Assembly: GCF_001270065.2 (NCBI RefSeq)
Contig: NZ_LFYT02000019.1
Coordinates: 1 to 64,000, forward strand
Length of the DNA: 64,000 nt
From: Limnohabitans planktonicus II-D5
GTDB taxonomy: Bacteria > Pseudomonadota > Gammaproteobacteria > Burkholderiales > Burkholderiaceae_C
Direction: 5' to 3'
In this document: one piece after another, positions 2-53,400 of the stretch
Layout: every line of letters starts with the position of its first letter
Numbering within the stretch: the first letter of the stretch is position 1
Translations under genes and position numbers: made by a program
Notes under the pieces: generated by a model
What the model was told of the DNA's origin: nothing
The model's input: the letters and a program-made list of their open reading frames with translations, nothing else
Database searches by the model: none

Positions 2-3000
2 GTTGCCGTTCTGAGCGATCCGGCAACGCCTTCAGAACTGGCAGACGTGGAAGCCAAGCAAGCCGCCGAATTGACTGCCGCCGCGGATGCCGCAGCCAAA
101 GCCGCCGCAGCAACAGCCGCAGCGACAGCAGCGCAAGCAGCAGCCACGGCTGCCGGTGAATCAGAACCTGCCAGCGTAGCCACCGCCAACGCCGCAGCCG
201 CCGCTGCAAGCACAGCGGGCAGCGACGCCACAGCATCAGCCACCGCCAGCGAAACCGCGACCGATGCCAAAGTGGCGAGCTTGGCCGCAGCAGCCGCCAG
301 TGCCGCGACTGCTGCCGACGCGGCTGCAGCAGCAGCGACAGCAGCCAAGACTGCGCTGGACAGCGCCGTTGGATCGATGAGCGATCCGGCAATGACTGCA
401 GAACTGGCAGACGTTGAAGCGAAGCAGGTCGTCGCACTGACTGCTGCAGTTGATGCGGCTGCCAAAGCTGCCGCAGCGACTGCCGCAGCGACAGCAGCTC
501 AAACAGCAGCCACCGCCGCCGGTGAATCTGAACCTGCCAGCGTGGTCACCGCCAACGCCGCCGCCACAGCTGCAAGCGCAGCAGGTACTGCAGCCACAGC
601 ATCGGCCACGGCCAGCGAAACGGCAACCGACGCCAAAGTCGCGGACCTGGCCACAGTTGCCGCCAATGCAGCAACTGCCGCCAGTGCGGCTGCCGCAGCA
701 GCGACAGCTGCGAAGGCCGCTCTGGACAGCGCCGTTGCAGCCCTGAGTGATCCTGCAACGCCAGCTGAACTCACTGACATCGAGGCCAAGCAAGCAGCAG
801 CGCAAGCTGCCGCCGCTGATTCCTCTGCCAAAGCCTCAGAAGCCACAGCCGCTGCGATTGCGGCACAAGATGCCGCCATAGCCGCCAACGAAACCGTGCC
901 TGCCAGCGTGGCCACTGCCAACGCCGGAGCCACAGCTGCAAGCGCAGCAGGTACGTCGGCAAGCACATCGGCCACTGCCAGCGAAACTGCAACAGACGCC
1001 AAAGTGGCTGATCTGGCTGCAGCCGCAGCCAATGCAGCAACAGCCGCCACAACGGCTGCAGCAGCAGCGACAGCAGCCAAGACTGCGCTGGACAGCGCCG
1101 TTGCAGCGATGAGCGATCCGGCAACGACTGCAGAACTGGCAGACGTTGAAGCGAAGCAGGTCGCCGCACAGACTGCTGCAGTTGATGCGGCTGCCAAAGC
1201 TGCCGCAGCGACTGCCGCAGCGATCGCGGCTCAGGCAGCTGCCACAGCCGCGAATGAAGCCGAACCTTCCAGCGTGGCAATTGCCAACGCCGCAGCCACA
1301 GCTGCAAGCGCAGCGGGCACCGACGCCACAACATCGGCCACGGCCAGCGAAACAGCGACAGACGCCAAAGTTTCTGACCTGGCCACAGTCGCCGCCAATG
1401 CCGCGACTGCCGCCACCACAGCTGCCGCAGTAGCGACTGCAGCCAAGACTGCGCTGGACAGCGCAGTCGCAGCGATGAGTGATCCGGCAACGCCAGCTCA
1501 ATTGGCAGACGTTGAAGCCAAACAGGCCGCAGCATTGACCGCCGCTGCTGATGCCGCTGCCAAAGCTGCAGCGGCGACAGCCGCAGCGATCGCGGCTCAG
1601 GCAGCTGCCACAGCCGCGAATGAAGCCGAACCTGTCAGCGTGGCTACTGCCATCGCTGCTGCCACAGCTGCAAGCGCAGCAGGCACCGACGCCACTGCTG
1701 CGGCCACCGCCAGCGAAATTGCGACAGACGCCAAAGTAGCCAGCTTGGCCACCGTCGCCGCCAATGCAGCAACTGCCGCCAGTGCGGCTGCCGCAAACGC
1801 AACAGCGGCCAAGACTGCGTTGGACAGCGCCGTTGCCGTTCTGAGCGATCCGGCAACGCCTTCAGAACTGGCAGACGTGGAAGCCAAGCAAGCCGCCGAA
1901 TTGACTGCCGCCGCGGATGCCGCAGCCAAAGCCGCCGCAGCAACAGCCGCAGCGACAGCAGCGCAAGCAGCAGCCACGGCTGCCGGTGAATCAGAACCTG
2001 CCAGCGTAGCCACCGCCAACGCCGCAGCCGCCGCTGCAAGCACAGCGGGCAGCGACGCCACAGCATCAGCCACCGCCAGCGAAACCGCGACCGATGCCAA
2101 AGTGGCGAGCTTGGCCGCAGCAGCCGCCAGTGCCGCGACTGCTGCCGACGCGGCTGCAGCAGCAGCGACAGCAGCCAAGACTGCGCTGGACAGCGCCGTT
2201 GGATCGATGAGCGATCCGGCAATGACTGCAGAACTGGCAGACGTTGAAGCGAAGCAGGCCGCAGCATTGACCGCCGCTGCTGATGCCGCTGCCAAAGCTG
2301 CAGCGGCGACAGCCGCAGCGATCGCGGCTCAGGCAGCTGCCACAGCCGCGAATGAAGCCGAACCTGCCAGCGTAGTCACCGCCAACGCCGCCGCCACAGC
2401 TGCAAACGCAGCAGGCACTGACGCCACAGCATCAGCCACCGCCAGCGAAACAGCAACCGACGCCAAAGTCGCGGACCTGGCCACAGTTGCCGCCAATGCA
2501 GCAAATGCCGCCAGTGCAGCTGCCGCAGCAGCGACAGCGGCCAAGACAGCGTTGGACAGCGCCGTTGCAGCCCTGAGTGATCCTGCAACGCCAGCTGAAC
2601 TCACTGACATCGAGGCCAAGCAAGCAGCAGCGCAAGCTGCCGCCGCTGATTCCTCTGCCAAAGCCTCAGAAGCCACAGCCGCTGCGATTGCGGCACAAGA
2701 TGCCGCCGTAGCCGCCAACGAAACCGTGCCTGCCAGCGTGGCCACGGCCAACGCCGGAGCCACAGCTGCAAGCGCAGCAGGTACGTCGGCAAGCACATCG
2801 GCCACTGCCAGCGAAACTGCAACAGACGCCAAAGTGGCTGATCTGGCTGCAGCCGCAGCCAATGCAGCAACAGCCGCGACAACAGCTGCCGCCACCGCAA
2901 CAGCAGCCAAGGCCGCACTGGACGGTGCTGTTGCCGCGCTGAGCAACCCCGCAACATCTGCCGAACTGGCTGCCGTTGAAGCTGCGCAAGCTGCAGCGCA

Positions 3001-6000
3001 AGTTGCAGCATCTGATGCCGCAGCCAAAGCTGCAGCAGCCACAGCCGCTGCAAATGCAGCCCAAGCCGCAGCTGCAGCAGCCAACGAAACAGTGCCTGCC
3101 AGCGTGGCAACTGCCAACGCTGCAGCCACTGCGGCAATTGCAGCCAGCACCGATGCCACTACATCGGCCACCGTCAGCGAAACGGCAACTGACGCCAAAG
3201 TGGCCAGCCTGGCCACAGCTGCCACCCATGCCGCAACTGCCGCCAGTGCAGCTGCAGCAGCAGCGACAGCGGCCAAGACAGCGTTGGACAACGCCGTTGC
3301 CGCATTGAGCGATCCAGCAACACCAGCTCAATTGGCAGACGTTGAAGCCAAGCAAGTCGCAGCGCTTACAGCTGCAGCAGATGCCGCAGCGAAAGCACAA
3401 GCTGCAACAGCCGCTGCGACTGCAGCCCAGGCAGCAGCCACCGCCGCCAACGAAGCCGTGCCTGCCAGCGTGGCCACTGCCAACGCTGCGGCCACCGCTG
3501 CAAGCGCAGCAGGCACCGAAGCCACCGCATCGGCCACCGCCAGCGAAACAGCAACCGACGCCAAGGTGGCAGACCTTGCAACAGCTGCCGCCCATGCGGC
3601 CACTGCCGCCACAACGGCAGCTGCAACGGCAATAAGGGCCAAGATGGCTTTGGAAAGCGCCGTTGCCGCACTGAGCGATCCCGCAACGCCAGCAGAGTTG
3701 GCAGACGTTGAAGCCAAACAAGCCGCAGCGCAAGCCGCAGCCACTGATGCCGCAGCCCAAGCTGCAGCCGCAACAGCTGCCACAGCAGCCCAGGCCGCCG
3801 CCACTGCCGCCAACGAAACCGAACCTGCCAGCGTGGCAGCCGCCAACGCCGCTTCGGGTGCAGCGGCTGCAGCAGCGCAGCAGGCCGCAGCGGCCGTGCT
3901 GGGCAGCTCGGCGCAGGCTGACCTGACAGCATGGGCTGATTTGAATGTGTACACGCTGGCCGGTGTGGCCGGTGTGGGGGGCTCAGCTCAGCCCAGCGTG
4001 GCCATGGTCAACAGTGTGCTGGCCGATCGGGACATCACCGGCGTGCAAGCCGACAGCGCTGCAGACGTTCAGGTGATCGTGGATGCTTATGCCGCTGTCT
4101 TGCAAAGCGCAGATGGACAGGCCAGCAACAGCACGCCTCCAACTTCAGCGCACTATGCGGCGCTGGGGGTCAATGGCATGGACAGCGCCTTGAAGGTGGG
4201 GCTGCTGGGCGAAGTGATTGACGGCAAAACCGCAGCCGATGTGGACAGCGTGGCCAAGCTCCAGGCGCTGGCCGATGCTGTGCAGGCGGTGGTGGCGAGT
4301 GCCATAGGCCAAGGCGCACCAACGCTGGCGCAGTTGCAGGCTCTGGGCCTCACGGGTGTGACGGCAGGCAATTTGTCTGCCGTGCAGTCGGCCCTGGCCG
4401 CGTCTGCCGATGATGGCTCGGGTGTGAGCACCTTGGGGGCTTTGCAAACCATGGTCGATGCCTGCACGCGCATCCTGGCGGAAGCCAATGGCGCAGCAGG
4501 AGACGCCGACAGCGCTGTCAATCCGGGCGCTGCCGACTACCAAGCGATGGGGGTTGATCTGGGCCTTTTGCGTGGCAACGCCAGCGGCATGGCTTTGTTG
4601 CAAGACGTGGTGGCCAGCCAGACCACCTCGGCCGTGGACACCTCAGGTGAAGTGAACGCACTGGCCCGTGCGGTCCAGGCCGTGTTGTCCCAGGCGCTGG
4701 ATGCCACCCCTGCCGTGGTGCCTGTGGCGACAGATTTCGCCTTGATCGGTGCGGCTCAGGCGGCTGCTTTGCGCCCTGGCTCGGCAGCGCTGGCTTTGTT
4801 CAACGATCTGATCGCTTCCGCCAGCCCGGCCATGCTGGACAGCGTGGCCAAGATCGATGCGCTGGGCAGCCTGGCCGAGCGCTTCATGGTGGTGGCCGCC
4901 AGCCAGGCCAGTGCATTGACTGCCAACCAGGCTCTGAGCCCGGCAGACTTCCTGGCCTTGGGAATTTCTGGCGTGGACAGCGCCAATCTGGCGCAGGTCT
5001 TGAGCGCCATCGCCAACACGGCCAATGACGGCAGCCAGATTCAGACGCTGGCGCAGCTGCAAACACTGGTGTTGACCACCGTGCGTGATCAGCAAGCCGC
5101 AGTGGATGCGCAAGCCCGCTTGCAGGCCTATGCCAACGACCCCGCCAACGCTGCCGTGCCAAGCCTGGCCGACTACACCTTGGTCGGCGTGAGCGCTGTG
5201 AATGCCGACACACGGGCGTTCCTCAATCAGGCGCTGGCCACACAGCCGTTCAGCGGCGGCATCACGGTGCAGGCCTTGCAGGCCATGGTGGATGCGTACA
5301 ACCGCATCCAGTCAGAAGCCAATGGCAGCGCCAACGACCTGACCGTGAGCGACCCCACGGCAGCCAGCTTCGAGCGCATTGGCGTGGACCTGGGTGTGGC
5401 GGCGCAAAACACGGCCTTGGGGCAAAACGCCCTGGCGCTGCTCAACGATGTCATCGGCGCACAAACGACGCAAGCGGTGCACACCGTGGCGCAGATCGAT
5501 GCGCTGGCCAGCATCACCTCGGCGCTGCTGGAGACGGCCGCTGGCTTGACGCCTGCACAGACGCTGACACCGGCCGATTTCGCCTTGCTGGGGGTCACGG
5601 GCGTCACGGCTCAAAATCTGAACGCAGTGCTGGCTGCCCTGGTCAGCACGCCCGATACCGGGGATGCGATCCACACGCTGGCCCGTTTGCAAAGCGTGGT
5701 GACTTCGGCATCTGAGCAAGCACAGGCCATCGGTGTGTTGCAAGCCGTGGTCGACACCCAGTCGGGCAACCCCAACCTGAATGTATGGGTGCAAGCGGGC
5801 CTGATCGGTGTGACCGAGGCCAATCGCCCGGCGCTGCTCGATGCCCTGAAAACAGGTGCCATCTCGACTGTCACGCCTGCAGCTTTGCAGGCCGTGCTCG
5901 ATGCCTACCAGTTGGTGCTGGTCGAAGCCAATGGCGGGGCACCCGATGCCAGTGCCGTGAACCCGACAGCGGCCACCTTTGCGGCCATCGGTGCCACTGC

Positions 6001-19534: not shown

Positions 19535-19832
19535 CGGCAAAGTGGCATGCCGTATCTATTTGCCTTTCGTTGGAAACAGGTCATTGCTGATTGATCCGGC
19601 CCTGTGAAGTCTGCAAGGTGACTTCAACCTAGCAAACGCAGTTGAACGCGCCCCAGGGCTGTGCCATCGGGTGCGTAGCGTTATCACCCACTAGGTGAGC
19701 GTCTTCGTGCTCACAGCGTTCAGGATACACAAGGTTTTTCAGCGGGTTCAAAGCGGTCAACTGCGTTTTCTAGGTTCATGAGGCTGTCAACTGTGCGCCA
19801 GCTGGATGGCCAGTCTCTGTTAGCCTTTCCCC
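19535..19832. other. Intergenic region with inverted repeats, no gene seen
   Basis: 298 bp between the kinase and the first GST gene, without a credible ORF. It holds a long imperfect inverted repeat (19624-19645 with 19757-19778). Between the arms, overlapping short hairpins could form alternatively: TCACC/GGTGA (loop CACTA) and GTGAGC/GCTCAC. A GST promoter must lie here, but no clear -35/-10 pair is visible. Confidence 0.5.
19624..19778. repeat. Imperfect 22-bp inverted repeat flanking 111 bp
   Basis: The left arm contains AACCTAGCAAACGCAGTTGA and the right arm (19757-19778) reads TCAACTGCGTTTTCTAGGTT on the plus strand. Reverse-complemented, the arms agree at about 20 of 22 positions. 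The structure resembles a small non-autonomous mobile element or a degenerate recombination site; no transposase is nearby. Confidence 0.6.
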
Positions 19833-41871: not shown

Positions 41872-41954
41872 GGGCTTTGCACCCTATTGGCATGTGTTGA
41901 GTTTGGAGGGGGGATTCGCTTGGCTGTTTGAAGTTATTGACCTCGCGGTGGCCT

Positions 41955-42207
41955 ATTGATCCGGCACGCTGAATTTTGAAATGAGTGAGACATGTCATCT
42001 TGTAGGTCGGTACTCGAAGAGTCCGACGTTTTTCCGCTTCGGCACAGGCCCTATGTCGGGGCTAAAGCCGCCGACCTACCAATGCATCCCCGTAGGTCGG
42101 CACTCGAAGAGTCCGACGTTTGGCCGCTTTGGCACAGACCCATGTCGGGGTCTTTGACCGCCGACCTGCAACATCTTTGAGCATTGAAAACTTCACTGGG
42201 CCGAATC
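41955..42207. repeat. Composite BIME element 1a (two 90-bp units, 253 bp)
   Basis: Left end ATTGATCCGGCAC; right end GGGCCGAATC; the ends pair as an imperfect terminal inverted repeat containing TGAAGTTT-like cores. Between them are two REP units starting at 42002 (type B-like) and 42092 (type A). Each begins GTAGGTCGG and ends with CCGACC. Only one base separates it from element 1b. Confidence 0.85.
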
Positions 42208-42208
42208 C

Positions 42209-42731
42209 ATTGATCCAGCACGCTGAAGTTTGAAATGTGTGAGGCATGTCATCTTGTAGGTCGGCACTCGAAGAGTCCGACGTTTGGACGCTTCGGCACA
42301 GACCCATGTCGGGGTCTTTGACCGCCGACCTGCCAATGCAGCCCCGTAGGTCGGCACTCGAAGAGTCCGACATTTTTCCGCTTCGGCACAGGCCCTATGT
42401 CGGGGCTAAAGCCGCCGACCTACCAATGCATCCCCGTAGGTCGGCACTCGAAGAGTCCGACATTTTTCCGCTTCGGCACAGACCCATGTCGGGGTCTTTG
42501 ACCGCCGACCTACCAATGCAGCCCCGTAGGTTGGCACTCGAAGAGTCCGACATTTTGCCCCTTCGGCACAGGCCCTATGTCGGGGCTAAAGCCGCCGACC
42601 TACCAATGCATCCCCGCAGGTCGGTACTCGAGGAGTCCGACGTTTGGCCGCTTCGGCACAGACCCATGTCGGGGTCTTTGACCGCCGACCTGCAACATCT
42701 TTGAGCATTGAAAACTTCACTGGGCCGAATC
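42209..42731. repeat. Composite BIME element 1b (five 90-bp units, 523 bp)
   Basis: Same ends as element 1a (left ATTGATCCAGCAC). Units start at 42256, 42346, 42436, 42526 and 42616, exactly 90 bp apart, mostly alternating between two types; the unit at 42436 mixes A and B features. Because 90 is a multiple of three, a spurious ORF runs through the array. Confidence 0.9.
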
Positions 42732-42847
42732 AATAGGCTGTTGTTGCAGGCCACTCCAAACTGCCGTGGTTTCAGATTTCAGGTGTTGTCGCTCATGTGT
42801 CATCTTTGAAAACCTTCGTGCTGTGCGAGCGTTGCTAGACTGAATTC

Positions 42848-43207
42848 ATGCGCATTTCAGAACTCTCAGCCAGAACCCAGGTGTCGGTGCATCGCTTGCG
42901 GCGCTACGAGGCGGCAGGCCTGATCGCGAGCCAGCGCTTGCCCAACGGCTACCGCGATTACGACGACAAAACCGTCAAGCACGTCATCTTCATCGCCATG
43001 TCGCGGGAGATGGGGTTCTCGCTGACTTTCATCGCCGAGTATTTGCCGCGCTTCAAAACGGGCAAGTTGTCGGCGCAAGACATGATCGATGCGATCTTGG
43101 TGCGCGTAGCCGAGATTGACCAACTCATGACCGAGCAACAAGCACTTCGCAAAAAACTGATGGACCACATCGGGTGGTTCAAAACCCAAGCCAGGAGAAA
43201 ACCATGA
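42848..43207 (+). CDS. MerR-family transcriptional regulator
   Basis: 119 residues. The N-terminal winged HTH is MRISELSARTQVSVHRLRRYEAAGLIASQRLPNGYRDYDDKTVKHV, followed by a dimerising coiled coil (EIDQLMTEQQALRKKL). No cysteine or metal-binding tail is seen, so it is not a classic metal sensor. Its stop overlaps the thioesterase start (ATGA), so the two are co-expressed and the regulator probably controls its own operon. Confidence 0.9.
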   Translation: MRISELSARTQVSVHRLRRYEAAGLIASQRLPNGYRDYDDKTVKHVIFIAMSREMGFSLTFIAEYLPRFKTGKLSAQDMIDAILVRVAEIDQLMTEQQALRKKLMDHIGWFKTQARRKP

Positions 43208-43611
43208 GCCCACTTGAGATGCTGAAAAAAATCAACGCCATGGCCGAATTCAATCGGTGGTGTGGCATCGAAGTGACGGTGGCTGAACCCGGCTTTGTGG
43301 AAATCCAGATGCCCTGGCGTGCAGAGGTGGGGCAGTATTCAGGCTTCTTGCATGCGGGCTTGATCGGCACCCTGATCGACACCGCGTGCGGTTTCGCAGC
43401 GGGCACCGTGGCGGGGCCGAATTTGTTGGCCGCCAACTTTTCGGTCAACTGCTTGCGCCCCGCCGTGGGTCAAAAGTTCATTGCCCGGGCACGGGTGGTC
43501 AAGCCGGGAAAAGCTCAGGTGTTCACCAGCTGCGATTTGTTTGCTGTGGACGCCGAGGGCGAAAAACTGGTGGCCAATGGTCAGACCTTGCTCACTGTGA
43601 TCGCCGCGTGA
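43204..43611 (+). CDS. PaaI-family hotdog thioesterase
   Basis: 135 residues from ATG 43204 (AGGAGA 8 bp upstream). Hotdog-fold motif GFLHAGLIGTLIDTACGFAA and LAANFSVNCLRPAVGQKF are typical of PaaI/YiiD acyl-CoA thioesterases. It probably hydrolyses a short or aromatic acyl-CoA. It is coupled by a 4-bp overlap to the MerR gene. Confidence 0.88.
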   Translation: MSPLEMLKKINAMAEFNRWCGIEVTVAEPGFVEIQMPWRAEVGQYSGFLHAGLIGTLIDTACGFAAGTVAGPNLLAANFSVNCLRPAVGQKFIARARVVKPGKAQVFTSCDLFAVDAEGEKLVANGQTLLTVIAA

Positions 43612-43673
43612 CCTACGCAACGTGGCGAATGTACTTCAGTGATCTTTTCAGTTGGTGGTTAAAAAGTTACAAT

Positions 43674-43697
43674 ACTTGTCCAATATGTTGAACAAGT
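43674..43697. promoter_or_regulatory. 24-bp near-perfect palindrome upstream of yefM-type gene
   Basis: Arms ACTTGT (43674-43679) and ACAAGT (43692-43697), with inner CAA/TTG and one mismatch pair, ending 7 bp before the antitoxin ATG. The position fits the autoregulatory operator of Phd/YefM antitoxins, which bind such palindromes with their N-terminal domain. Confidence 0.65.
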
Positions 43698-43704
43698 TAA
43701 AGCC

Positions 43705-43959
43705 ATGCGAATCATCAGTTATTCCGAAGCGCGTAACGGGCTGAAGTCAGTCCTGGATGGCGTGGAAGACGACGCCGACATCACCATCATCACCCGCCGA
43801 GATGGCGGTGATGCTGTGGTCATGTCCATGGCGCACTACCAGAGCATGGCCGAAACCTTGTACCTGCTCTCCAGCCCCGCCAATGCCGCGCACTTGGCGG
43901 CATCGATTGCCGAACACAAAGCCGGCAAAGCCAAGCGCCGTGAACTGATCACCCCATGA
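43705..43959 (+). CDS. YefM/Phd-type antitoxin
   Basis: 84 residues. The N-terminal Phd/YefM fold is MRIISYSEARNGLKSVLDGVEDDADITIITRRDGGDAVVMSMAHYQSM; the C-terminal tail is disordered and charged (EHKAGKAKRRELITP) and would wrap the toxin. It overlaps the toxin start by 4 bp (ATGA) and has a palindromic operator just upstream. Confidence 0.93.
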   Translation: MRIISYSEARNGLKSVLDGVEDDADITIITRRDGGDAVVMSMAHYQSMAETLYLLSSPANAAHLAASIAEHKAGKAKRRELITP

Positions 43960-44219
43960 GCCGGGGAATTGCGTTCACCTCGCATGCCTGGGCCGATTAT
44001 TTGCATTGGCAGGGCCAGGACAAAAAAACGCTCAAGCGCATCAACTTGCTGATCGACGCTGCTCGGCGTGACCCGTTTGACGGCATTGGCAAGCCCGAGC
44101 CGCTGCTGGGCAACTTGTCTGGCTACTGGTCACGGCGCATCGACGACGTGCATCGCCTAGTCTACGCCGTGGACGATGCGGAATTGACGGTGATCGCCTG
44201 TCGGGGGCATTACCAATAA
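43956..44219 (+). CDS. YoeB-type toxin (Txe/YoeB mRNA interferase)
   Basis: 87 residues of RelE/YoeB fold (WADYLHWQGQDKKTLKRINLLI). The family's catalytic positions appear intact: Glu in GKPEPL, Arg in SRRIDDVHRLVY, and the C-terminal GHY. It cleaves mRNA on the ribosome when free of the antitoxin. It converges with the P450 gene, with only 5 bp between stops. Confidence 0.93.
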   Translation: MSRGIAFTSHAWADYLHWQGQDKKTLKRINLLIDAARRDPFDGIGKPEPLLGNLSGYWSRRIDDVHRLVYAVDDAELTVIACRGHYQ

Positions 44220-44224
44220 GCGGT

Positions 44225-45640
44225 TCAACCGCCCTGCGTGGGTGCAATGGCGGCTCTTTGATGCAGTCGCAGTCGGATCGCTTGCGCAGGCCGCAAGGTC
44301 ACGGCGAGATCGCCCTCGGGCCAGGCTGCGCCCTCAGGCCACGCCAAACTGAAACGCTGCATCAGCATGGCCCCGATCAGGCCCATTTCGAGCATGGCAA
44401 AGTGCTGCGCAATGCAGACTCGGGGGCCGGTGCCAAAGGGCATCCACGCACCGCGCGGGATGTCGGGTGCGCCGGGCAAAAAGCGCTCTGGCTTGAATGC
44501 GTCGGGTGATTCGAACCAGCGTGGATCGCGTTGAATCACGTAAGGGGTGAAAGCGATCAACTGACCTTTGGGCAATGTCCATGGCCCGACCTTCACATCT
44601 TTGATGGCGCGTCGGGTCATCAAGACCGCTGCGGGTGGGTAAAGGCGCATGGCTTCTTTGAGGCTGGCTTGCAGCCACGGCAGTTGCTGCAAAGTCGCGG
44701 GCGTTGGGGTTTCGCCTTGGAGCACCGCGTCGATTTCGGCGTGGATGCGCTGGGCCACGTCGGGGTGGCTTGCCACCAGTCCGCTCCACCAGGTCATGGC
44801 GGTGGCCGTGGTTTCATGACCGGCCTGAAACATCACCATGGTCTGGTCGTGCAGCTCTTGCGCACTCAGACCTTGGTCTGGGTGCTCGGGGTCGCGGGCT
44901 TGTCTCAGCATGGTCAACAGGTCTTCGCTTTCTTGCTGTTGCGCTGCTGACTGGGCCTGAATGTGCTGCTGTATCACGCGGTCCAGCGTTTGTTTGGCAT
45001 GGCGCACTTGACGCACAGAAGGCAGGGGCATCCAATGCGGCCATGAAAACGGCTTGAACATCTCCTCGATGCCCGAATGGCTCAAGGTTTGGATGGCCTC
45101 GGCGATGGGGCGGGCATCGGTGACCTGGTGCGCGCCGAACAGCGCCCGCAAAATCACATCGAGCGTCATGGTGGTCATGAGCGCATCCATGTCCACGCTT
45201 TGCTCTGCCGGGCGTTGGGCCAGGTTGGCCAGCGCATCTTGCGCTGCGGACGTCATCAACGCGGCGTAACCTGTCACCCGCTTGGGGGTGAAGCCCGGCT
45301 GCAGCATGCGGCGCTGGCGCTGCCATGAGGCGCCTTCGGTCACCAGCACGCTTTGCCCCATGGCGACACTGAAGATTTCGGTCGCGCGTTCCCAACGGAT
45401 CAGCGCATCGGCTTGGTCGACCAACACTTCGCGCACCCAGTCAGGATGAAAGACGTGGACGATGTGCTCGTTCAAGACTTGCACATGCGCGATGTCTGGG
45501 TGCTGGCTTTGCAAGCGCCCGACAAACCCCAAATAGTCGGCTCGCATGGTGCGCAGGTGGTTCAAACCCCACAAGCGGCCAGCCGGGCCTGAGGGGATGG
45601 TTTGCATGGGGTGTGTGGGTGATGAGTATGTGGTGTCCAT
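44225..45640 (-). CDS. Cytochrome P450
   Basis: 471 residues from ATG 45640; ATG 45607 is an alternative, and the longer frame to 45853 lacks family similarity. Signature motifs: I-helix AGHETTATAM (oxygen activation), K-helix ExxR as EAMRLYPP, and heme-binding loop FGTGPRVCIAQHFAMLEM with the axial Cys. No membrane anchor is evident, so it is a soluble bacterial P450. Substrate unknown, and no ferredoxin or reductase gene is adjacent. It diverges from an AraC-type regulator with about 100 bp between starts, so that regulator probably controls it. Confidence 0.92.
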   Translation of the reverse strand: MDTTYSSPTHPMQTIPSGPAGRLWGLNHLRTMRADYLGFVGRLQSQHPDIAHVQVLNEHIVHVFHPDWVREVLVDQADALIRWERATEIFSVAMGQSVLVTEGASWQRQRRMLQPGFTPKRVTGYAALMTSAAQDALANLAQRPAEQSVDMDALMTTMTLDVILRALFGAHQVTDARPIAEAIQTLSHSGIEEMFKPFSWPHWMPLPSVRQVRHAKQTLDRVIQQHIQAQSAAQQQESEDLLTMLRQARDPEHPDQGLSAQELHDQTMVMFQAGHETTATAMTWWSGLVASHPDVAQRIHAEIDAVLQGETPTPATLQQLPWLQASLKEAMRLYPPAAVLMTRRAIKDVKVGPWTLPKGQLIAFTPYVIQRDPRWFESPDAFKPERFLPGAPDIPRGAWMPFGTGPRVCIAQHFAMLEMGLIGAMLMQRFSLAWPEGAAWPEGDLAVTLRPAQAIRLRLHQRAAIAPTQGG

Positions 45641-45739
45641 GGCCTGATCTTGCGGGGTCACTGGCTGGCCGTCTTGAATCGAATCGACACCTTGGGGGTA
45701 ATGGTTTGTGTTGAATGATGGCTTACCTATACTTTGCTC

Positions 45740-46681
45740 ATGTCCAGCGATACCCTTGCCCCCAACTTTGCACCCGTCCAAACTTGGCTGCCGCCATGGG
45801 GCCTGAGTGCTTGTGTGCGTGCGGCGATAGCCCGCAGCGCGGTGGGTTTGCATGCGTCACAGCGCTGGGGGCACTACCCTGCCGGCCCGATCTGCTCGAT
45901 CGCTTGCTTGTTCGAGGGCTCGGCCGAAGCGTTGGATGCTGGCGCGACTTTTGACCCGCAGGCCACTCGCCAAAGTCTGCCTGCGATGACGGTGACAGGC
46001 CCACACAGTTCGCCCCGCAGCGTTTTGTACGGGCCCCAAGCGGATGGCGTGATGGTCCTTTTCTATCCGGATGCCTGGTGGGCGCTCACGGGGGTGTCGC
46101 CACAGGATTTGACCAACCAAATCGTCGATGCGCACAGTGTCTTGCCTGCGGCCTTGCTCGCGGCGTGCGAGCGCATGCGCAAGGGTGGCCATGCCAATAC
46201 CCGTGTGAAGACTTTTTTTGAAGATTTGCTGCCTCTGTGGGATGAAAGGGACGTGGACCGATTCACGCCAACAGGGCCGCAGCGCAACTGGGCGCAAGCG
46301 TTCGCCCCGTGGATGGAGTCTTTGGCCTTGCGTGCCGCCGCCACCGGCTGGGGGCGCAGCTTGCGTCAGTCCGAGCGCCGTATCAAACAGTGGACGGGCT
46401 GGTCCTTGCGCAAGTTGCAAGGCTCCGTCAGGGGTGAGGCTGCATTTTTTGCGGTGATGGAGGCCATGCTCGAAGACCGTGTGGACTGGGCGCAGATCGC
46501 TTTGGACAACGGGTTTTCAGACCAAAGCCATTTCATCCGCGAGACCCGCCGCATCACCGGCTTCAGCCCCGAAGCATTGCGTCATGGCTTCAACACCGAT
46601 GAGGCGTTTTGGGTCTATCGGGCATGGGCGCAGTTGGCGGGGTATGAGGTGCCAGCGCCTGCGGCGCTGGTTGATTATTGA
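45740..46681 (+). CDS. AraC-type helix-turn-helix regulator
   Basis: 313 residues from ATG 45740 (TTG 45734 is possible). The C-terminal 100 or so residues have the AraC double HTH: SLRQSERRIKQWTGWSLRKL and WAQIALDNGFSDQSHFIRETRRITGFSPEALRHG. The N-terminal domain is a ligand-sensing region of unclear fold. It is divergent from the P450 gene. Its stop TGA lies inside the left terminus of composite BIME element 2. Confidence 0.88.
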   Translation: MSSDTLAPNFAPVQTWLPPWGLSACVRAAIARSAVGLHASQRWGHYPAGPICSIACLFEGSAEALDAGATFDPQATRQSLPAMTVTGPHSSPRSVLYGPQADGVMVLFYPDAWWALTGVSPQDLTNQIVDAHSVLPAALLAACERMRKGGHANTRVKTFFEDLLPLWDERDVDRFTPTGPQRNWAQAFAPWMESLALRAAATGWGRSLRQSERRIKQWTGWSLRKLQGSVRGEAAFFAVMEAMLEDRVDWAQIALDNGFSDQSHFIRETRRITGFSPEALRHGFNTDEAFWVYRAWAQLAGYEVPAPAALVDY

Positions 46682-47558
46682 TCCGGCACCCTGAAGTTTG
46701 AAATGTGTGAGGCATGTCATCTTGTAGGTCGGTACTCGAAGAGTCCGACGTTTGGCCGCTTCGGCACAGACCCATGTCGGGGTCTTTGACCGCCGACCTG
46801 CCAATGCAGCCCCGTAGGTCGGCACTCGAAGAGTCCGACATTTTTCCGCTTCGGCACAGGCCCTATGTCGGGGCTAAAGCCGCCGACCTACCAATGCATC
46901 CCCGCAGGTCGGCACTCGAAGAGTCCGACGTTTGGCCGCTTCGGCACAGACCCATGTCGGGGTCTTTGACCGCCGACCTGCCAATGCAGCCCCGTAGGTC
47001 GGCACTCGAAGAGTCCGACATTTTTCCGCTTCGGCACAGGCCCTATGTCGGGGCTAAAGCCGCCGACCTACCAATGCATCCCCGCAGGTCGGCACTCGAA
47101 GAGTCCGACGTTTGGCCGCTTCGGCACAGACCCATGTCGGGGTCTTTGACCGCCGGCCTGCCAATGCAGCCCCGTAGGTCGGTACTCGAAGAATCCGACA
47201 TTTTTCCGCTTCGGCACAGGCCCTATGTCGGGGCTAAAGCCGCCGACCTACCAATGCAGCCCCGTAGGTTGGCACTCGAAGAGTCCGACGTTTGGCCGCT
47301 TCGGCACAGACCCATGTCGGGGTCTTTGACCGCCGACCTGCCAATGCAGCCCCGTAGGTTGGCACTCGAAGAGTCCGACATTTTTCCGCTTCGGCACAGG
47401 CCCTATGTCGGGGCTAAAGCCGCCGACCTACCAATGCATCCCCGCAGGTCGGTACTCGAAGAGTCCGACGTTTGGCCGCTTTGGCACAGACCCATGTCGG
47501 GGTCTTCGACCGACGACCTGCAAGATCTTTGAGCATTGAAACTTCACAGGGCTGAATC
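46677..47558. repeat. Composite BIME element 2 (nine 90-bp units, 882 bp)
   Basis: Units start at 46724, 46814, 46904, 46994, 47084, 47174, 47264, 47354 and 47444, strictly alternating A and B types. Left end ATTGATCCGGCAC and right end GGGCTGAATC match the other elements. The length is within 1 bp of that predicted by 253 + 90 per extra unit. It lies between the converging AraC and CYTH genes, flush with both stop codons. Confidence 0.92.
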
Positions 47559-47559
47559 T

Positions 47560-48171
47560 TCAGGCCCGCCGCCAAAGCGCCATCCCCCTTTGTGCCTTGC
47601 TGGTGTCGCTGGGTGCAAGTGTCACGGGGCCTTGCGGTGTCTGGCGCAGCACTTTGGCCAGCGCCATCAAAGCGGATTCGGGGCCACTCAGCAGTTCCAG
47701 TTCCAGCTCCAGCAGGGGCTCGCTCAGGGCAGTGCCGGGCACATGGATGCGGCCTTGATCGAGGGCGACTTCGATGCGCGCGTCATCATGCGTGATGACC
47801 CAGCGCTGGCGTTCAAAGTCGGTGCAAAACAGGGCCTTCAATGAAGGGCGCAGCGCCATTAGCTCGGCGGCCAAGGTGACGTCATCCACCAGTGTGTCGA
47901 ACTGCAAGGCACCCGGGCTGGTGGGGCCTTCCCACTCTTGCCTGCGTGACAGGCCATTTTCGCTTTGCCCCGCCGTTTTCACCGTCAGCAGCCACTGCGT
48001 GCCCGTCAGCCTTTCGCGCACGGCCATGCGGCGCTCTTGCAGTTTCAAATCCGGTGTGTCGAAGTAGGTGTTGAGCAGCCGTTGTTTGCTGCCACGGTTT
48101 GCCAACAAAGGGTGTAGCAGCAGGCGGGGCAGCTCTTGTGGGGTGAGGGAGAGTTTGAGTTCGGTTTCCAT
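47560..48171 (-). CDS. CYTH-domain triphosphatase
   Basis: 203 residues. The ExExK motif at the very start (METELKL) and the tunnel-fold features (LNTYFDTPDLKLQERRMAVRERL, WLLTVKT) identify the CYTH superfamily, which covers inorganic triphosphatase, thiamine triphosphatase and class-IV adenylyl cyclase. Without a CHAD domain, inorganic triphosphatase activity is the best guess. The stop codon is 1 bp from BIME element 2. Confidence 0.9.
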   Translation of the reverse strand: METELKLSLTPQELPRLLLHPLLANRGSKQRLLNTYFDTPDLKLQERRMAVRERLTGTQWLLTVKTAGQSENGLSRRQEWEGPTSPGALQFDTLVDDVTLAAELMALRPSLKALFCTDFERQRWVITHDDARIEVALDQGRIHVPGTALSEPLLELELELLSGPESALMALAKVLRQTPQGPVTLAPSDTSKAQRGMALWRRA

Positions 48172-48268
48172 GACAGCGGACGGGGTTGGGCGGTTCAGGG
48201 CAAACAGTGACCGCCAAATGCCGTATTTGAGCAGGGTCTGAATTTGGAAGATCAGCAGGTTGAGTGTG

Positions 48269-49234
48269 TCAACGCACAGGTTTGACCCGCACGCCCCCCA
48301 ACACGCCCAGGATCAGCAACGCAATGCCTGTCAGCGTCAAGGGTTCAGGCCACTGACCTCGCAGCCAGAAGGTGTAGCTCATGGCGGCGAGGGTTTCGAA
48401 CACAATCAGTTGGCCCGCCAAGGCTGTGGGCAGGCGTTGGCTGGCGGCGTTCCAGCACAGGGTGCCCAGCCACGAGGCAAACAGCGCGATGGCCATCATG
48501 AGCCCGATGAATTCGAGGGGGCGTGGTCCCAGGGGCATGGGCAGTGGGTTGTGCGTGGCGCTGCTCCACAGCCAGAACGCGGCGTAGCCCAGCAAGGCCA
48601 GGGGCAGCGTGGCCAGGCCTTGCGCGGTGGCCCATACGCGCGGGTTGCGGTCGGGGTGGCCGCGCAGCCAGTCGGCGTTTTTGAGGGGGTACCAGGTCCA
48701 ACAGACCATCGCGCCCACGGCCAGCACCGCACCGGTGATGTAGCGGCCGGTGTCTGCCTGCGGGTTTTGCAGCAGGGCCGTCCACTCCACATGGTTGACA
48801 CAGGCGATGCCCAGCAAAATCAGTGCCAAAGGCGGAGCCAGTTTGAGCCACGGAAAGCGCCCGTCGCGCTGGTGGTTGAGCAAATTGGCCGCGACTGCAA
48901 TCACGACTGGCAACGTTCCGATGATCATCGTGGGCAGTGCGCCGCCCGCACGCTGGATGGCGCTGGACAGCAACAGGTAATACAGCACGTTGCCAATGGC
49001 TGCCAGTTTGAGCGCAGTTAGCCAGTCTGCACGGGACAGGCGCTTGATTTCAGAGCGGTCCACAAAGGCCAGGGGCAGCGCGATCAGACCAAAGGCCAGG
49101 TAGCGGCCAAAGGTGTGCAGCATGCCGGGGTACTCGGGCAGCATGAGCGGGGCGACAAACACCAGGCCCCACATCATGCCGGCGGCCAAAGAAAAGAAGA
49201 TGCCGCCCCATAGGGCGTTGGCGTTGTTAGGCAT
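48269..49234 (-). CDS. EamA-type (DMT superfamily) membrane transporter
   Basis: 321 residues from ATG 49234 (MPNNANALWGGIFFSLAAGMMWG); the longer frame to 49453 would add non-membrane residues that overlap the next gene. About ten hydrophobic segments form two EamA halves, e.g. FGRYLAFGLIALPLAFV, LPTMIIGTLPVVIAVAANLL, YITGAVLAVGAMVCWTWYPL and LTLTGIALLILGVLGGVRV. Exporter of a small metabolite, substrate unknown. Confidence 0.85.
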   Translation of the reverse strand: MPNNANALWGGIFFSLAAGMMWGLVFVAPLMLPEYPGMLHTFGRYLAFGLIALPLAFVDRSEIKRLSRADWLTALKLAAIGNVLYYLLLSSAIQRAGGALPTMIIGTLPVVIAVAANLLNHQRDGRFPWLKLAPPLALILLGIACVNHVEWTALLQNPQADTGRYITGAVLAVGAMVCWTWYPLKNADWLRGHPDRNPRVWATAQGLATLPLALLGYAAFWLWSSATHNPLPMPLGPRPLEFIGLMMAIALFASWLGTLCWNAASQRLPTALAGQLIVFETLAAMSYTFWLRGQWPEPLTLTGIALLILGVLGGVRVKPVR

Positions 49235-49254
49235 GTCTTGAACGAGAGAAGGGG

Positions 49255-49893
49255 TCAGGCGCGCCAAGCGGGCAGTTGCCAGTTGCGCCAAAGTGCCAGT
49301 GCGCGCAAGCCCACGGTGACCAGCAGGCAGCCCAGCAGGGCCACCCAGCCAGGAGCGTCGGTGGACCAGAGGCCCACATATGTCCAGCCGCCCGCAAAGG
49401 CGCAGACCGCGTAGGGGCGGTGGTCCTTGAAGGTGGTGGGGATTTCGTTGCACACCATGTCGCGTAGCACACCGCCAAACACGCCCGTGATCAGGCCCAT
49501 GAGCACGGCGACCATCGGGGGCATGTTCACCTGCAGTGCGTGGTGCACGCCTGTGGCGGTGAACAGGCCCAGGCCCAGCGCGTCAGGCCAGAGGATCGCT
49601 TTTTCGGTGACTTCAAAATGGCGCTGGCGCATGAAGGCCATGGCCATCACACACAGGGCCAGCACCCCCCAGAGCATTTCGGTGTGTTGCACCCAAAAGA
49701 AGGGGCGCTGGTCGAGGAGCAAGTCGCGCAGCGTGCCGCCACCGAAAGCAGCCAAAAAAGCCACCACGCACACGCCCACGGCGTCCAGCCGCTTGCGCGC
49801 AGCTTCCATCAGACCGGAAAGCGCAAAGGCGGCGGTGGCTGACAACTCGACCAGCAGGCGAAGGGTGTCACCCCAGGATTGAATGGCGTACAT
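49255..49893 (-). CDS. UPF0126/TRIC-type (YicG-like) membrane protein
   Basis: 212 residues from ATG 49893 (MYAIQSWGDTLRLLVELSATAAFALSG). Two UPF0126 repeats are visible, each with the glycine-rich motif (AFLAAFGGGTLRDLLLD and GLITGVFGGVLRDMVCNEIP) that marks trimeric intracellular cation channel relatives. Seven membrane segments are expected. It may share a transcript with the EamA gene 20 bp downstream. Confidence 0.9.
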   Translation of the reverse strand: MYAIQSWGDTLRLLVELSATAAFALSGLMEAARKRLDAVGVCVVAFLAAFGGGTLRDLLLDQRPFFWVQHTEMLWGVLALCVMAMAFMRQRHFEVTEKAILWPDALGLGLFTATGVHHALQVNMPPMVAVLMGLITGVFGGVLRDMVCNEIPTTFKDHRPYAVCAFAGGWTYVGLWSTDAPGWVALLGCLLVTVGLRALALWRNWQLPAWRA

Positions 49894-50211
49894 GGCGGTG
49901 ATTATCGGGGGTGATGTCCAGGGCGGTGTCTGCATGCATGCAAGGGGGCATGTGCAGGTCGCAGGCTTCAGCCTCGACATGAGTCTGCCCCGAAGTCAGG
50001 CATGTGGGAGCTGAAGCTGCCGACCTACGGGGAGTTGGCAAGGGTTTGACTTCGTAGGTCGGTACTCGAAGAGTCCGACGCTGCATGTTGGGCACAAAGC
50101 GCTGGAAGCAGGCAAAGGAGGTCAATCAGGCCAAACCTCGGGGTCTGCGACCACCGACCTACGGGGAGTTGGCGAGGGTTTGCAGGTCGGCGGCTTCAGC
50201 CCCGACAGGGA
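49894..50211. repeat. Intergenic region with degenerate REP/BIME fragments
   Basis: 318 bp without a gene. Several REP-like pieces are present: the CCGACCTACGGGGAGTTGGC motif occurs twice (about 50020 and 50153), GTAGGTCGGTACTCGAAGAG near 50055, and GCAGGTCGGCGGCTTCAGCC near 50184. The fragments are related to the 90-bp units but lack the fixed element ends, so this is an older or differently built BIME. Confidence 0.7.
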
Positions 50212-51529
50212 TTAAAGCCAGACCTTTTGGTAGCGGCCTTGCGGGTCGTGGTCTTGTGTTTGCTTGGTGGGGTTAAAGCGCCGCCCCTGGCGCGGGTCGG
50301 TGCCCCGGCCGCTCACATACAGCCAGTTCCCCTGGTTGCTGTAGACATCAAAGTCCACCAGTTGCGATTCGAACCAGGCGGCGCCCGCACGCCAGTCGCA
50401 TGACAGGTCGTGCACCAGAAAGCTGGCCACGATTTGGCGCATGCGGTTGGAGGTGAAGCCTGTGGCCGCCAGCTCGCGCATGCCCGCGTCCACGATGGGC
50501 TCGCCGGTTTGGCCGCTGCACCAGCGCTGAAAGTCCTTGGGAAAGTGCGAGGGTTGTGGCAGGTTCGACAAGCCGCGTGCCGCATAGAGTTGCGGGCCGT
50601 GTTGCCGGTGCAGCATGCGGAAGTTGTCGCGCCACAGCAGTTCAAACCAGAGCCAATAGGTGCCGTCGTTGCTGCCATGCGTTTGCTCGTAGGCCTGCAG
50701 CGCTGCCCAGATGCGGCGGGCCGACACCGCGCCCGTAGCCAACCAAGGCGACCAGAGGCTGCTGGTGTGCTGGCCTTGCAAGGCGTTGCGGGTTTGTTTG
50801 TAGCGGTCGGGCCAAGGGGGTGTGAGGTAGCTGTGCAGATGGGCCAAAGCGCTGGCCTCGCCGCCCCGGTGGGGGGGCTTGTGTGTAAGGAAAGTTCGAA
50901 CGTGGGTGCGCATCGCCCTCGGTGTGGGCTTGCAGCAGCGTGAAGGCGTCTTCAGTCCAGCCGGGCAAGGCGGTCATGTTGTCACTCGGAGGCGCAGGCA
51001 GTTGGGTCAGGGCAGGCAGCGGTGCCAAGGGCTGGAGCCCCGCCGACTCGATGCGCTGGCGAAACTCGGTGAAGACCTGCGGCATGTCTTCGGTCGCAAA
51101 GGGCAGGGCGTCGGGTTCGATCAGGCTGGACTGCCACAGGGTTTTGACCGTGAGGCCCGCGTGGATCAGGGCTTGCACCTGCGCCTCTTCTTCGGGCGCG
51201 GCGATGTCTTCGCAAAACACGGTGTCGGCTTGCACCAGGCGAGCGCAGGCGGGCAGTACATCAGCCACAGGCCCGTGCAGCAAGACCAGTTGCTGGTTCA
51301 GTGATTGCAGCGAGGATTGCAGGGCTTGCAGCGTGTTGGCCACAAAGCGCCTGCGGTGCACGCCCATGCGGCGAAAGCCCCAGACGGTGGGCGCGTCTTG
51401 CACGGGTTCGTGCACATAGACCAGCAACAGGGCTTGACCATGCGCTTGGGCGTGGTCGATGGCTGGCTGGAGTGCGCGTTGGTCGTGCAAGCGCAAGTCG
51501 TTTCGAAACCAGAAAATGGTGCTGCGCAT
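50212..51529 (-). pseudogene. DASH-type cryptochrome, frameshifted at a C7 tract
   Basis: Two overlapping frames make one protein. The frame 51529-50642 starts MRSTIFWFRNDLRLHDQRAL (photolyase N-terminal domain) and loses similarity near 50880. The frame ending at 50212 continues with HRGGEASALAHLHSYL and the FAD domain: SSLWSPWLATGAVSARRIW, WFELLWRDNFRMLHRQ, NRMRQIVASFLVHDLSCDWRAGAAWFESQLVDFDVYSNQGNW and KQTQDHDPQGRY. The switch lies at seven C (minus strand; G7 at 50871-50877); six C would join them as TQAPHRGGE. The cause is either a disabling insertion, a sequencing error, or slippage. Intact, it would repair cyclobutane dimers in ssDNA or sense blue light. Confidence 0.85.
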
Positions 51530-51534
51530 GGTTT

Positions 51535-51800
51535 ATTGATCCGGCACGATGAAGTTTGAAATGTGTGAGAAATGTGATCTCGTAGGTCGGTACTGACAGA
51601 ATCCGACGTTTGCTGCTCCGGCACAGGCCCATATCGGGGTCTTCGACCGCCGACCTACAACATCAATGTTTAAGAAGTGTCATCTTGTAGGTCGGTACTC
51701 GCAGAGTCCGACGTTTGCCAGCTTCACACAGGCCCCTGTCGGGTTCTTCGACCGCCGACCTACAAGATCTTTGAGCATTGAAAAATTCACGGGCCGAATC
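51535..51800. repeat. Composite BIME element 3 (two diverged units, 266 bp)
   Basis: Left end ATTGATCCGGCAC begins 5 bp upstream of the Cry-DASH start codon. Right end GGGCCGAATC overlaps the stop codon of the next cryptochrome gene. Units near 51581 and 51687 are more diverged than those in elements 1 and 2, with an altered spacer between them. Confidence 0.85.
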
Positions 51801-53400
51801 AAAAAAAGTCAAAGCCCAGCTGGGCACTGGCTGGGGTGTTGGCTGAAGAGGACTTGGCAGACTTTCGGCGGTTGGTCTTGGGCGTGTCCGAGTCGCGTGT
51901 GAACACGTCGCGTTGCGCGCCGCTGCCATGTTTGCGCGAAGCGTGTTTCTCAACGATGGCTTTTTTGCCCGCTTTCACACCGGGCTCTGCCCGCCGGGCG
52001 TGCAGCGCGGCTTTGGAGTTGCGCGTGGCCTCGGCCAAGTCCACCACGGGCAGGGGAATGTCGGCGTCAGGCCCGCTGCCCACCGTCAGGCCGCAGTGGC
52101 GCTGCACCTCGGGGGGCATGAGCCAGGGCTCAAACAACCAGGTGTCGGGCACACGCCGCATGTGCGGCAGCCAGCGCCTAACAAAGATGCCTTTGGGGTC
52201 GTGGTCTTGCGCTTGTTTGATGGGGTTGTACACCCGCGTGGTGTTGATGCCGGTGGTGCCCGACTGCATTTGCAACTGGCTCCAGTGAATGCCGGGCTCG
52301 TAATCGAGAAACTGCGTGGCCAGCCAATGGCCCACGGGCCGCCAGTCGAGCCACAAGGGGTAGGCCGCCACCGACACCAGCATGGCCCGCATGCGAAAGT
52401 TGAGCCAGCCGGTTTCATAGAGCATGACCACACAAGCGTCCACCATGGGCCAGCCGGTGCGTGCCGAGGTCAGGGCCGCAAAGTGCGCATCGCTCCAGCC
52501 GTCTTCGCGCAGGCCGTCATAACCCCGGTGCATGTTGCGCCACTCGATTTCGGGCTCGCTTTCGAGCTTTTGGATGAAGTGGCAATGCCAATACAAGCGG
52601 CTGATGAAGCCGACCAGGCCCGCCCGGTGCCTGCCCGCTTGTGGCGGCAAAGCATCGAGCGCAGCCCGAGTGCTTTGCACCACTTCGCGCAGGCTGATGC
52701 AGCCCCAGGCCAAATAGGCCGAAATGCGCGAACAGGCTGTGGGCGAAGTCAGCGGCGAAGAGATGCCGCCTCGGTACGACAAAGCCCGTGCGTCCAAAAA
52801 ACTGTGCAAGGTCTCCAGACCCAAGCGACGTCCGCCGCGCTGGCGATCAGGTGGGTTGTGCTGCAGGCCGGGTGGTGGTGTCATCACTTCGGGACCAAAA
52901 TTTTCAGACGCGTGAAAAAAGTGCAACCTGGGCAAGACCGCGTGTGGCGCGGCCATGTGCGCTTCCCAGCGGGCTTGCCAGGTGTTGCGGCTTTTGAGGC
53001 GTCGCACCACGCCAAACTGAGGCAACTCGGTCCAGCCCACGCCAGCACTGCGGCACCACGCGCCCACTTGCAGATCGCGCTCGTAGGTGAAGGCGTTGCC
53101 GGTTTCTTGGTGCGCCACCAGTTCGGCAAACGGCGCTTGTGCGTGCAGGGCAGCCAGCACCTGCACCGCAGGCCCCACGCGCACTTGCAAGCTGCCGCCC
53201 AGCGCTTGCAGGTCCTGGTGCAGCTCGGTCAAAGATTCGCGCACGAATTCAAAGTGCTGCAGGGCCGCATCGGGCTGCGCCCACAGATCTGGCTCGACGA
53301 TGTAGAGGCACAGCACCGGTCCACGAGTTGCAGCGTGCGCAAGCGCCGCATGGTCGTGCAGGCGCAGGTCGCGCTTGAACCAGACGACGCGGTAAGTCAT
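51799..53400 (-). CDS. Cryptochrome/photolyase-family flavoprotein
   Basis: 533 residues. N-terminal alpha/beta domain begins VVWFKRDLRLHDHAALAHA. The FAD-binding helical domain has SRISAYLAWGCISLREV, GLVGFISRLYWHCHFIQKLE, TGWPMVDACVVMLYETGWLNFRMRAMLVS and WATQFLDYEPGIHW (printed HWLATQFLDYEPGIHW), followed by NPIKQAQDHDPKGIFVRRWLP. The C-terminal 90 residues are Lys/Ala-rich and variable (VEKHASRKHGSG). It is either a DNA photolyase or a signalling cryptochrome. Its start overlaps the stop of the small upstream gene by 4 bp. Confidence 0.9.
   Translation of the reverse strand: MTYRVVWFKRDLRLHDHAALAHAATRGPVLCLYIVEPDLWAQPDAALQHFEFVRESLTELHQDLQALGGSLQVRVGPAVQVLAALHAQAPFAELVAHQETGNAFTYERDLQVGAWCRSAGVGWTELPQFGVVRRLKSRNTWQARWEAHMAAPHAVLPRLHFFHASENFGPEVMTPPPGLQHNPPDRQRGGRRLGLETLHSFLDARALSYRGGISSPLTSPTACSRISAYLAWGCISLREVVQSTRAALDALPPQAGRHRAGLVGFISRLYWHCHFIQKLESEPEIEWRNMHRGYDGLREDGWSDAHFAALTSARTGWPMVDACVVMLYETGWLNFRMRAMLVSVAAYPLWLDWRPVGHWLATQFLDYEPGIHWSQLQMQSGTTGINTTRVYNPIKQAQDHDPKGIFVRRWLPHMRRVPDTWLFEPWLMPPEVQRHCGLTVGSGPDADIPLPVVDLAEATRNSKAALHARRAEPGVKAGKKAIVEKHASRKHGSGAQRDVFTRDSDTPKTNRRKSAKSSSANTPASAQLGFDFF

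Follow-up and report, generated by a model that had tools for sequence, protein, structure and literature searches.

Correia/NEMIS and RUP elements target the dinucleotide TA, and to our knowledge none of them holds a REPIN, a pair of inverted repetitive extragenic palindromic (REP) sequences, or an array of repeated units. As far as the portions of the literature covered go, a limit that applies to every source cited here, both are miniature inverted-repeat transposable elements (MITEs) derived from the insertion sequence (IS) family IS630 (PMC2817692, PMC3049150). BOX elements of Streptococcus pneumoniae have boxA and boxC as their ends and, between these, tandem boxB units in variable number (PMC3049150). 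REPINs are known to form tandem clusters (PMC3116915), and tyrosine transposases with unrelated terminal inverted repeats (TIRs) have also been described (PMC3733652). Here we analyse 64,000 nucleotides of Limnohabitans planktonicus II-D5 (contig NZ_LFYT02000019.1, positions 1 to 64,000; hereafter the window), in which four repeats with fixed ends enclose variable numbers of REPIN units. These elements are very likely IS630-family MITEs that carry a REPIN as cargo and in which the array of units grew after insertion.

Each of the described systems matches these elements in part. Correia/NEMIS and RUP share with them the IS630-type ends and the form of a short, hairpin-forming element (PMC2817692, PMC3049150). 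BOX elements resemble them in their fixed ends, in unit numbers that vary at orthologous loci and in a TIR like that of an IS (ISSpn2), whereas boxB is not termed a REP or REPIN, the IS is another one and the host is Gram-positive; this comparison is one of architecture only (PMC3049150). In BrickBuilt and MITE464/PgRS of Porphyromonas gingivalis, MITE-like ends matching a local IS likewise surround a tandem array, but the array is a 23- or 41-bp minisatellite, the ends are of IS5 type and the text covered makes no link to REPs or to REP-associated tyrosine transposases (RAYTs) (PMC4596501). Systems of RAYTs with REPINs or bacterial interspersed mosaic elements (BIMEs) have the inverted GTAG REPs, the RAYT flanked by the same REP and the tandem clusters of units in common with the present case, whereas the present REPINs are enclosed by ends of DDE type and flanked by a duplicated TA target (PMC3116915, PMC2817692, PMC3733652). 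A REPIN within IS630 ends was not described in the covered portions of the open-licence literature searched, including PMC10969869, PMC4853749 and PMC8266576. An earlier note on this DNA had suggested that a bounded array of this kind may be undescribed. Variable arrays inside IS-like ends have precedents in BOX and BrickBuilt, whereas the REPIN as MITE cargo appears to be undescribed in the literature searched.

Window copies and their ends

The four copies, with common ends around two, five, nine and two units, were confirmed as the earlier note had described them, after correction of their bounds by a few bases:

41954..41955, TA target dinucleotide, left copy at site A; DM1 is empty here (CCTTGGC)
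41956..42209, + strand, element A1, IS630-type ends around 2 REPIN units
42002..42169, + strand, A1 array of 2 REPIN units
42210..42733, + strand, element A2, A1-type ends around 5 units, abutting A1
42256..42691, + strand, A2 array of 5 units with 180-bp dimer structure
42734..42735, TA target duplication, right copy at site A
46676..46677, TA target, left copy at site B; the right copy at 47561-47562 is now CA, and the empty site in DM1 reads GATTAGGC
46678..47560, + strand, element B, the same ends as A1 and A2 around 9 units
46724..47521, + strand, B array of 9 units with 180-bp dimer structure
51536..51802, + strand, element C, diverged copy with 2 units; left TA at 51534-51535, right copy AA
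51582..51763, + strand, C array of 2 units with a 105-bp period

Consensus 28-bp left and right ends agree at 22/28 positions after reverse complementation, in line with the imperfect TIR claimed before (about 20 of 26). The proposed length rule also held, since lengths of 254, 524 and 883 bp equal 254 + 90(n - 2) to within 1 bp; the diverged copy measures 267 bp. A1 and A2 directly adjoin, with no TA at their junction. In the long arrays a 180-bp dimer of two unit types is a better period than 90 bp, with 97% matches at 180 bp against 84% at 90 bp in the nine-unit array and 94% against 86% in the five-unit array. A lone right-type end, with neither partner nor REP, lies at window positions 19591-19620.

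The end pattern TTGATNCGGCNNNNTGAANTTT matched exactly at 119 places in the 4.87-Mb genome and its reversed control at none, an occurrence far beyond chance. A 253-bp query gave at least 141 matches in the genome, 40 of the 478 candidate places having been scored. Within the genus (Limnohabitans as defined in GTDB), strict ends were present in 6 of 60 genomes, most of all in that of the window (77), followed by DM1 (16); a looser pattern was found in 13 of 399 genomes of the family. The element-bearing relatives are Limnohabitans sp. DM1 (G059) and T6-5 (G054) and the metagenome-assembled genomes PBBC1 (G043), PBBC2 (G017) and KT_bin-2687 (G045).

On sequence grounds these ends are those of IS630-family transposons, since ends of the same type bound TA-flanked IS630 elements in other genera. 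A family-wide search recovered six complete IS630 elements, 1104-1123 bp long, from four other genera and five genomes in all (L224 in G283, L223 in G352, L229 in G179, L234 in G210, and L237 and L240 in G223). Over 22-bp ends, each has one exact match to the pattern and one end with 1-2 mismatches, and TA stands on both sides of all six. The proteins of L240 and L229 were scanned and scored 238 and 224 bits against NF033545 (IS630 family transposase; cut-off 100). The transposase of L223 is divided between two frames. Matches to the IS630 transposase model PF13358 were found in 3/60 genomes of the genus, none of them element-bearing, and ends of this kind were seen in only one of these, G046. 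There a contig (L220) starts with a C-terminal fragment of an IS630 transposase, after which come a MITE-type end and TA; the parent element may have left this remnant within the genus. In another genus, elements of about 460 bp in genome G094 (L238, L241 and others) have the same kind of ends around an unrelated interior.

To define the basic element, two-ended copies were catalogued in the regions around matches of the 253-bp query and around the end places, limited to the first 100 of 119 (contigs C1-C31), ends being looked for on contigs C1-C31 and C38. Convergent ends next to each other were paired if they had no more than 8 mismatches, a tolerance at which a few of the resulting 76 elements may be mispaired. 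Thirty-five are 164 bp or shorter, 10 measure 165-199 bp and 31 range from 200 to 1647 bp. The short elements that were aligned each held one unit or a recognisable remnant of one, and in the aligned single-unit elements the REPIN stands about 46 and 40 bp from the ends. The basic element is therefore taken to be one of about 163 bp and not an array. At 163 bp, under about 300 bp and without coding capacity, this form agrees with what defines an IS630-family MITE; open reading frames (ORFs) running through long arrays were not counted as genes. Two tiny elements with the same ends are free of a REPIN (C3:251758, 91 bp, and L233, 90 bp). A 98-bp element on contig C5 of the window genome (L211:8653-8750) has the same ends and seemingly a single REP rather than a REPIN.

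Target sites, REPIN interior and RAYT loci

TA flanks both sides of 23/37 elements with intact TTGA..TCAA termini and of 32/76 elements overall; TA makes up 1.2% of the dinucleotides in the window. The base outside it is C or T before 40/43 left TAs and A or G after 45/50 right TAs. Joined flanks of six sites were queried against the genomes of the genus, and relatives had empty alleles at all five informative ones (A, B, C, C4:37235 and C17:85181). Site B is empty in DM1 (GATTAGGC), in T6-5 (TTTAAGCC) and in G017 (CTAAGTC), the C17 site in G007 (GGTCTAACAAG), the C4 site in DM1 (GACTTTTAGGGC), site A in DM1, and site C in DM1, G018 and G043. At B, C4 and C17 the empty allele has TA once. Both empty sites and a target duplication, the checks that the earlier note had proposed, were thereby found, and its view of the ends as those of a mobile element is supported by their IS630 type, the TA flanks and the empty sites.

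Each unit comprises two inverted REPs that start with GTAG, that is, a REPIN, and REP-a is present in 903 exact copies in the genome. A RAYT gene carrying the same GTAG REP, as had been anticipated, was identified at C16:72318-72827 (locus L069; NF047646, 180 bits, cut-off 80). It is flanked on either side by REPs identical to those of the units. When one 163-nt element (C1:60220) was folded, it gave a single uninterrupted hairpin in which arms pair with arms and REP with REP, at -45.2 kcal/mol against -22.9 kcal/mol for shuffled sequences (z = -7.87). Such a continuous hairpin, together with the presence of a cognate RAYT, would suit an extended REPIN of which the ends are merely a part, the whole being moved by the RAYT without any DDE transposase. 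This explanation was rejected as highly improbable. The TA is duplicated relative to empty sites, the same kind of ends occurs on autonomous-looking IS630 elements, no such ends (up to 7 mismatches) were flagged beside the REPs at L069, and free REP arrays exist without ends. Indeed, none was flagged at this threshold at any of L067-L070, the genome's four PF01797 loci, which thus do not show, with these ends, the arrangement of TIRs and tyrosine transposase termed TIRYT in the part of the source covered (PMC3733652).

To determine how frequent free arrays are, all clusters on contig 1 with an exact REP-a match were counted in a census with lenient end detection. Among 31 clusters, 10 had both ends, 10 had one and 11 had none. 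Two of the ten one-end cases depend on ends with 9 mismatches, and a third (217603) really has both ends, its cluster running past the right one; by eye, one of the clusters scored as endless (368964, L054) retains the vestige of an end. An end lay within 160 bp of 20/31 clusters compared with 15/4000 positions drawn from end-poor stretches, a source that somewhat understates chance. Since clusters with and without ends are both common, REP arrays live inside and outside MITEs. The census replaced a hand-picked 400-kb sample in which 18/19 REP clusters lacked ends (19/23 with the window added); those stretches hold none of the 100 listed end places and the sample was therefore biased. The earlier note had made the bounded element depend on units without ends being rarer than units with them: endless units are common (11/31), yet the ends are strongly associated with the clusters (20/31). 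The 903 copies of REP-a and the many arrays without ends might suggest ordinary BIME arrays that adjoin older MITE ends by chance or insertion preference and form no functional unit. Given the excess of ends over the end-poor positions and the constant placement of the REPIN in aligned single-unit elements, we rejected this alternative too, and consider it hardly credible. Within the window, one copy of REP-a at 50054-50079 is without MITE ends.

The same outer ends enclose four types of REP, each of which stands beside at least one RAYT:

Type 1 REP, the kind found in the window; RAYT loci L069 and L284
Type 2 REP, GTGGGAGCTAGCCCTGCTGGCGAT, in an element of constant length (171-172 bp), 5 in the catalogue and 3 in named DM1 loci; RAYT loci L068, L286 and L296
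Type 3 REP, GTAGGTCGGTGGCTTTAGCCCCGAC, for example at C25:59889; RAYT loci L070, L282, L283, L285 and L289
Fourth REP type, GTGGGAGCCCCGCCCTCGGGGCGAT, T6-5 L141:1423-1602; RAYT locus L291

The RAYT sample comprised 19 of the 23 loci found, the other four lying in other genera. One of the four REP types adjoins 11/19 of these loci and none adjoins 7/19, while L290 has a weak match only. MITE-borne copies of types 2 and 4 read GTGG, and those beside RAYTs mostly GTAG. Past the first 22 bp, type 1, type 2 and the fourth type have different arms, suggesting separate origins rather than swapping of cores. Repeated capture of REPINs between IS630 ends, involving different RAYT families, is probable. 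A candidate for capture in a different genus, a 127-bp element of G178 with a central palindrome, was dropped; the palindrome occurs only twice in that genome and is therefore not a REP family.

Recurrent capture of REPINs is the most interesting aspect of these elements. REPINs are thought to depend on one RAYT, which is usually transmitted vertically, and with a carrier of DDE type they would have a second, independent means of spreading and persisting. We tentatively suggest that two unrelated transposition systems may share one substrate here. REPIN families would repeatedly ride between IS630 ends and so gain a second, double-strand, TA-targeted route free of their own RAYT. The MITE, for its part, would owe its central palindrome and array-forming core to the REPIN, and the fused hairpin would be a dual-substrate element recurring across RAYT families.

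Probable array growth after insertion

For MITEs with a REPIN as cargo, the basic element would consist of TA, a left arm of about 46 bp, a single REPIN of some 77 bp with its two inverted GTAG REPs, a right arm of about 40 bp and TA. We infer that an IS630-type DDE transposase acting in trans would recognise the ends, insert the element at TA and duplicate this dinucleotide, and that the interior REPIN derives from the RAYT/REP populations of the genus, having probably been inserted or captured between IS630 ends. After insertion, slippage or unequal recombination may duplicate either the entire element or the REPIN plus pieces of the arms, which would give each locus its own period.

The alleles of site A bear on growth in place. 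In both G043 and G045 one 164-bp single-unit element lies between the same flanks that border 2+5 units in the window, so that arrays probably grow where they stand. (Beside this site, about 296 bp present in both relatives are missing from the window, at about 41790.) Spacers between units were compared with the arms at 58 array loci outside the window that had unequal REP-a counts on the two strands. In about half of them (28/58) the commonest spacer was at least 2 edits closer to a fusion of right-arm head and left-arm tail than the best of 20 shuffles, although two of these, L267 and L080, are poor matches. The fused-arm junctions in the spacers differ between arrays. Of 21 hand-chosen spacers, 12 were closer to the arms than any of 30 shuffles, and the remaining 9 were not. 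Units are 92.0% identical within an array and 85.6% between arrays, the value being higher within in 12/13 arrays. This likeness within arrays, the arm-derived spacers and the single unit at site A are as predicted by tandem duplication after insertion. The earlier note had the bounded array moving as a unit. Mobility of the ends stands, whereas the well-supported mobile unit is the MITE of about 163 bp with a single REPIN, and the array seems to be later growth in place.

Whole elements were also copied in tandem, with TA kept between the copies. Tandem arrays of whole elements with a 194-bp period were seen on contigs C21 and C27 of the window genome (L111 and L121). The longest element, of 1647 bp, would hold about 16 units by its length, and 12 were recognised. 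Further arrays stand at the ends of contigs C5, C9, C15 and C18, and arrays therefore probably break the assembly.

Several observations weigh against MITEs with a REPIN as cargo and arrays grown in place. With regard to the ends, 39/76 elements as catalogued are without intact outer termini, and target sites are not uniform: DM1 has TT instead of TA at the empty site A, the right copy of TA at C reads AA, and the C17 site is unfilled in five more relatives that lack TA or have other letters there. A search with PF13358 detected no IS630 transposase in the genome of the window or in its five element-bearing relatives among the 60 sampled genomes, which either lack the enzyme at present or have it undetected. 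With regard to growth, the spacer had no arm origin at 23/58 array loci and was borderline at 7/58. The 12-nt spacer of the window arrays is no nearer to the arms than the best shuffled sequence (edit distance 4 for both), so that it has no assignable arm origin, and it recurs in a free array without ends (C3:256 kb). The 180-bp dimer is common to A2 and B, a likeness not predicted if each array grew separately in place. This spacer, its copy in a free array and the common dimer make it probable that arrays were to some extent exchanged or moved between loci.

In a rival account the array-bearing element itself would transpose, ends and several units moving together by the IS630 route and unit numbers diverging afterwards. 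In its favour, A2 and B agree in dimer order and spacer, their mean unit identity is 89.3% as compared with 82.4% between B and sampled units of other arrays, and site B is empty in DM1, T6-5 and G017. We nevertheless consider this rather unlikely: G043 and G045 have a single unit at site A, private periods and spacers are common among arrays, 35/76 catalogued elements are of single-unit size, and gene conversion between neighbouring arrays explains the likeness of A2 and B equally well. Dozens of array-bearing elements can be compared with empty or single-unit alleles, as was done for five, and the origin of BIME arrays can thus be studied site by site.

Other features of the window

The window opens with 10.5 copies of a 366-bp tandem repeat (12-3852), perhaps part of a long repetitive coding region that the start of the window truncates. 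At 43705-44219 two small ORFs lie next to each other, which we take to resemble a YefM/YoeB toxin-antitoxin pair. Two overlapping ORFs in different frames at 50212-51529 together resemble one gene, presumably photolyase-like and probably frameshifted.

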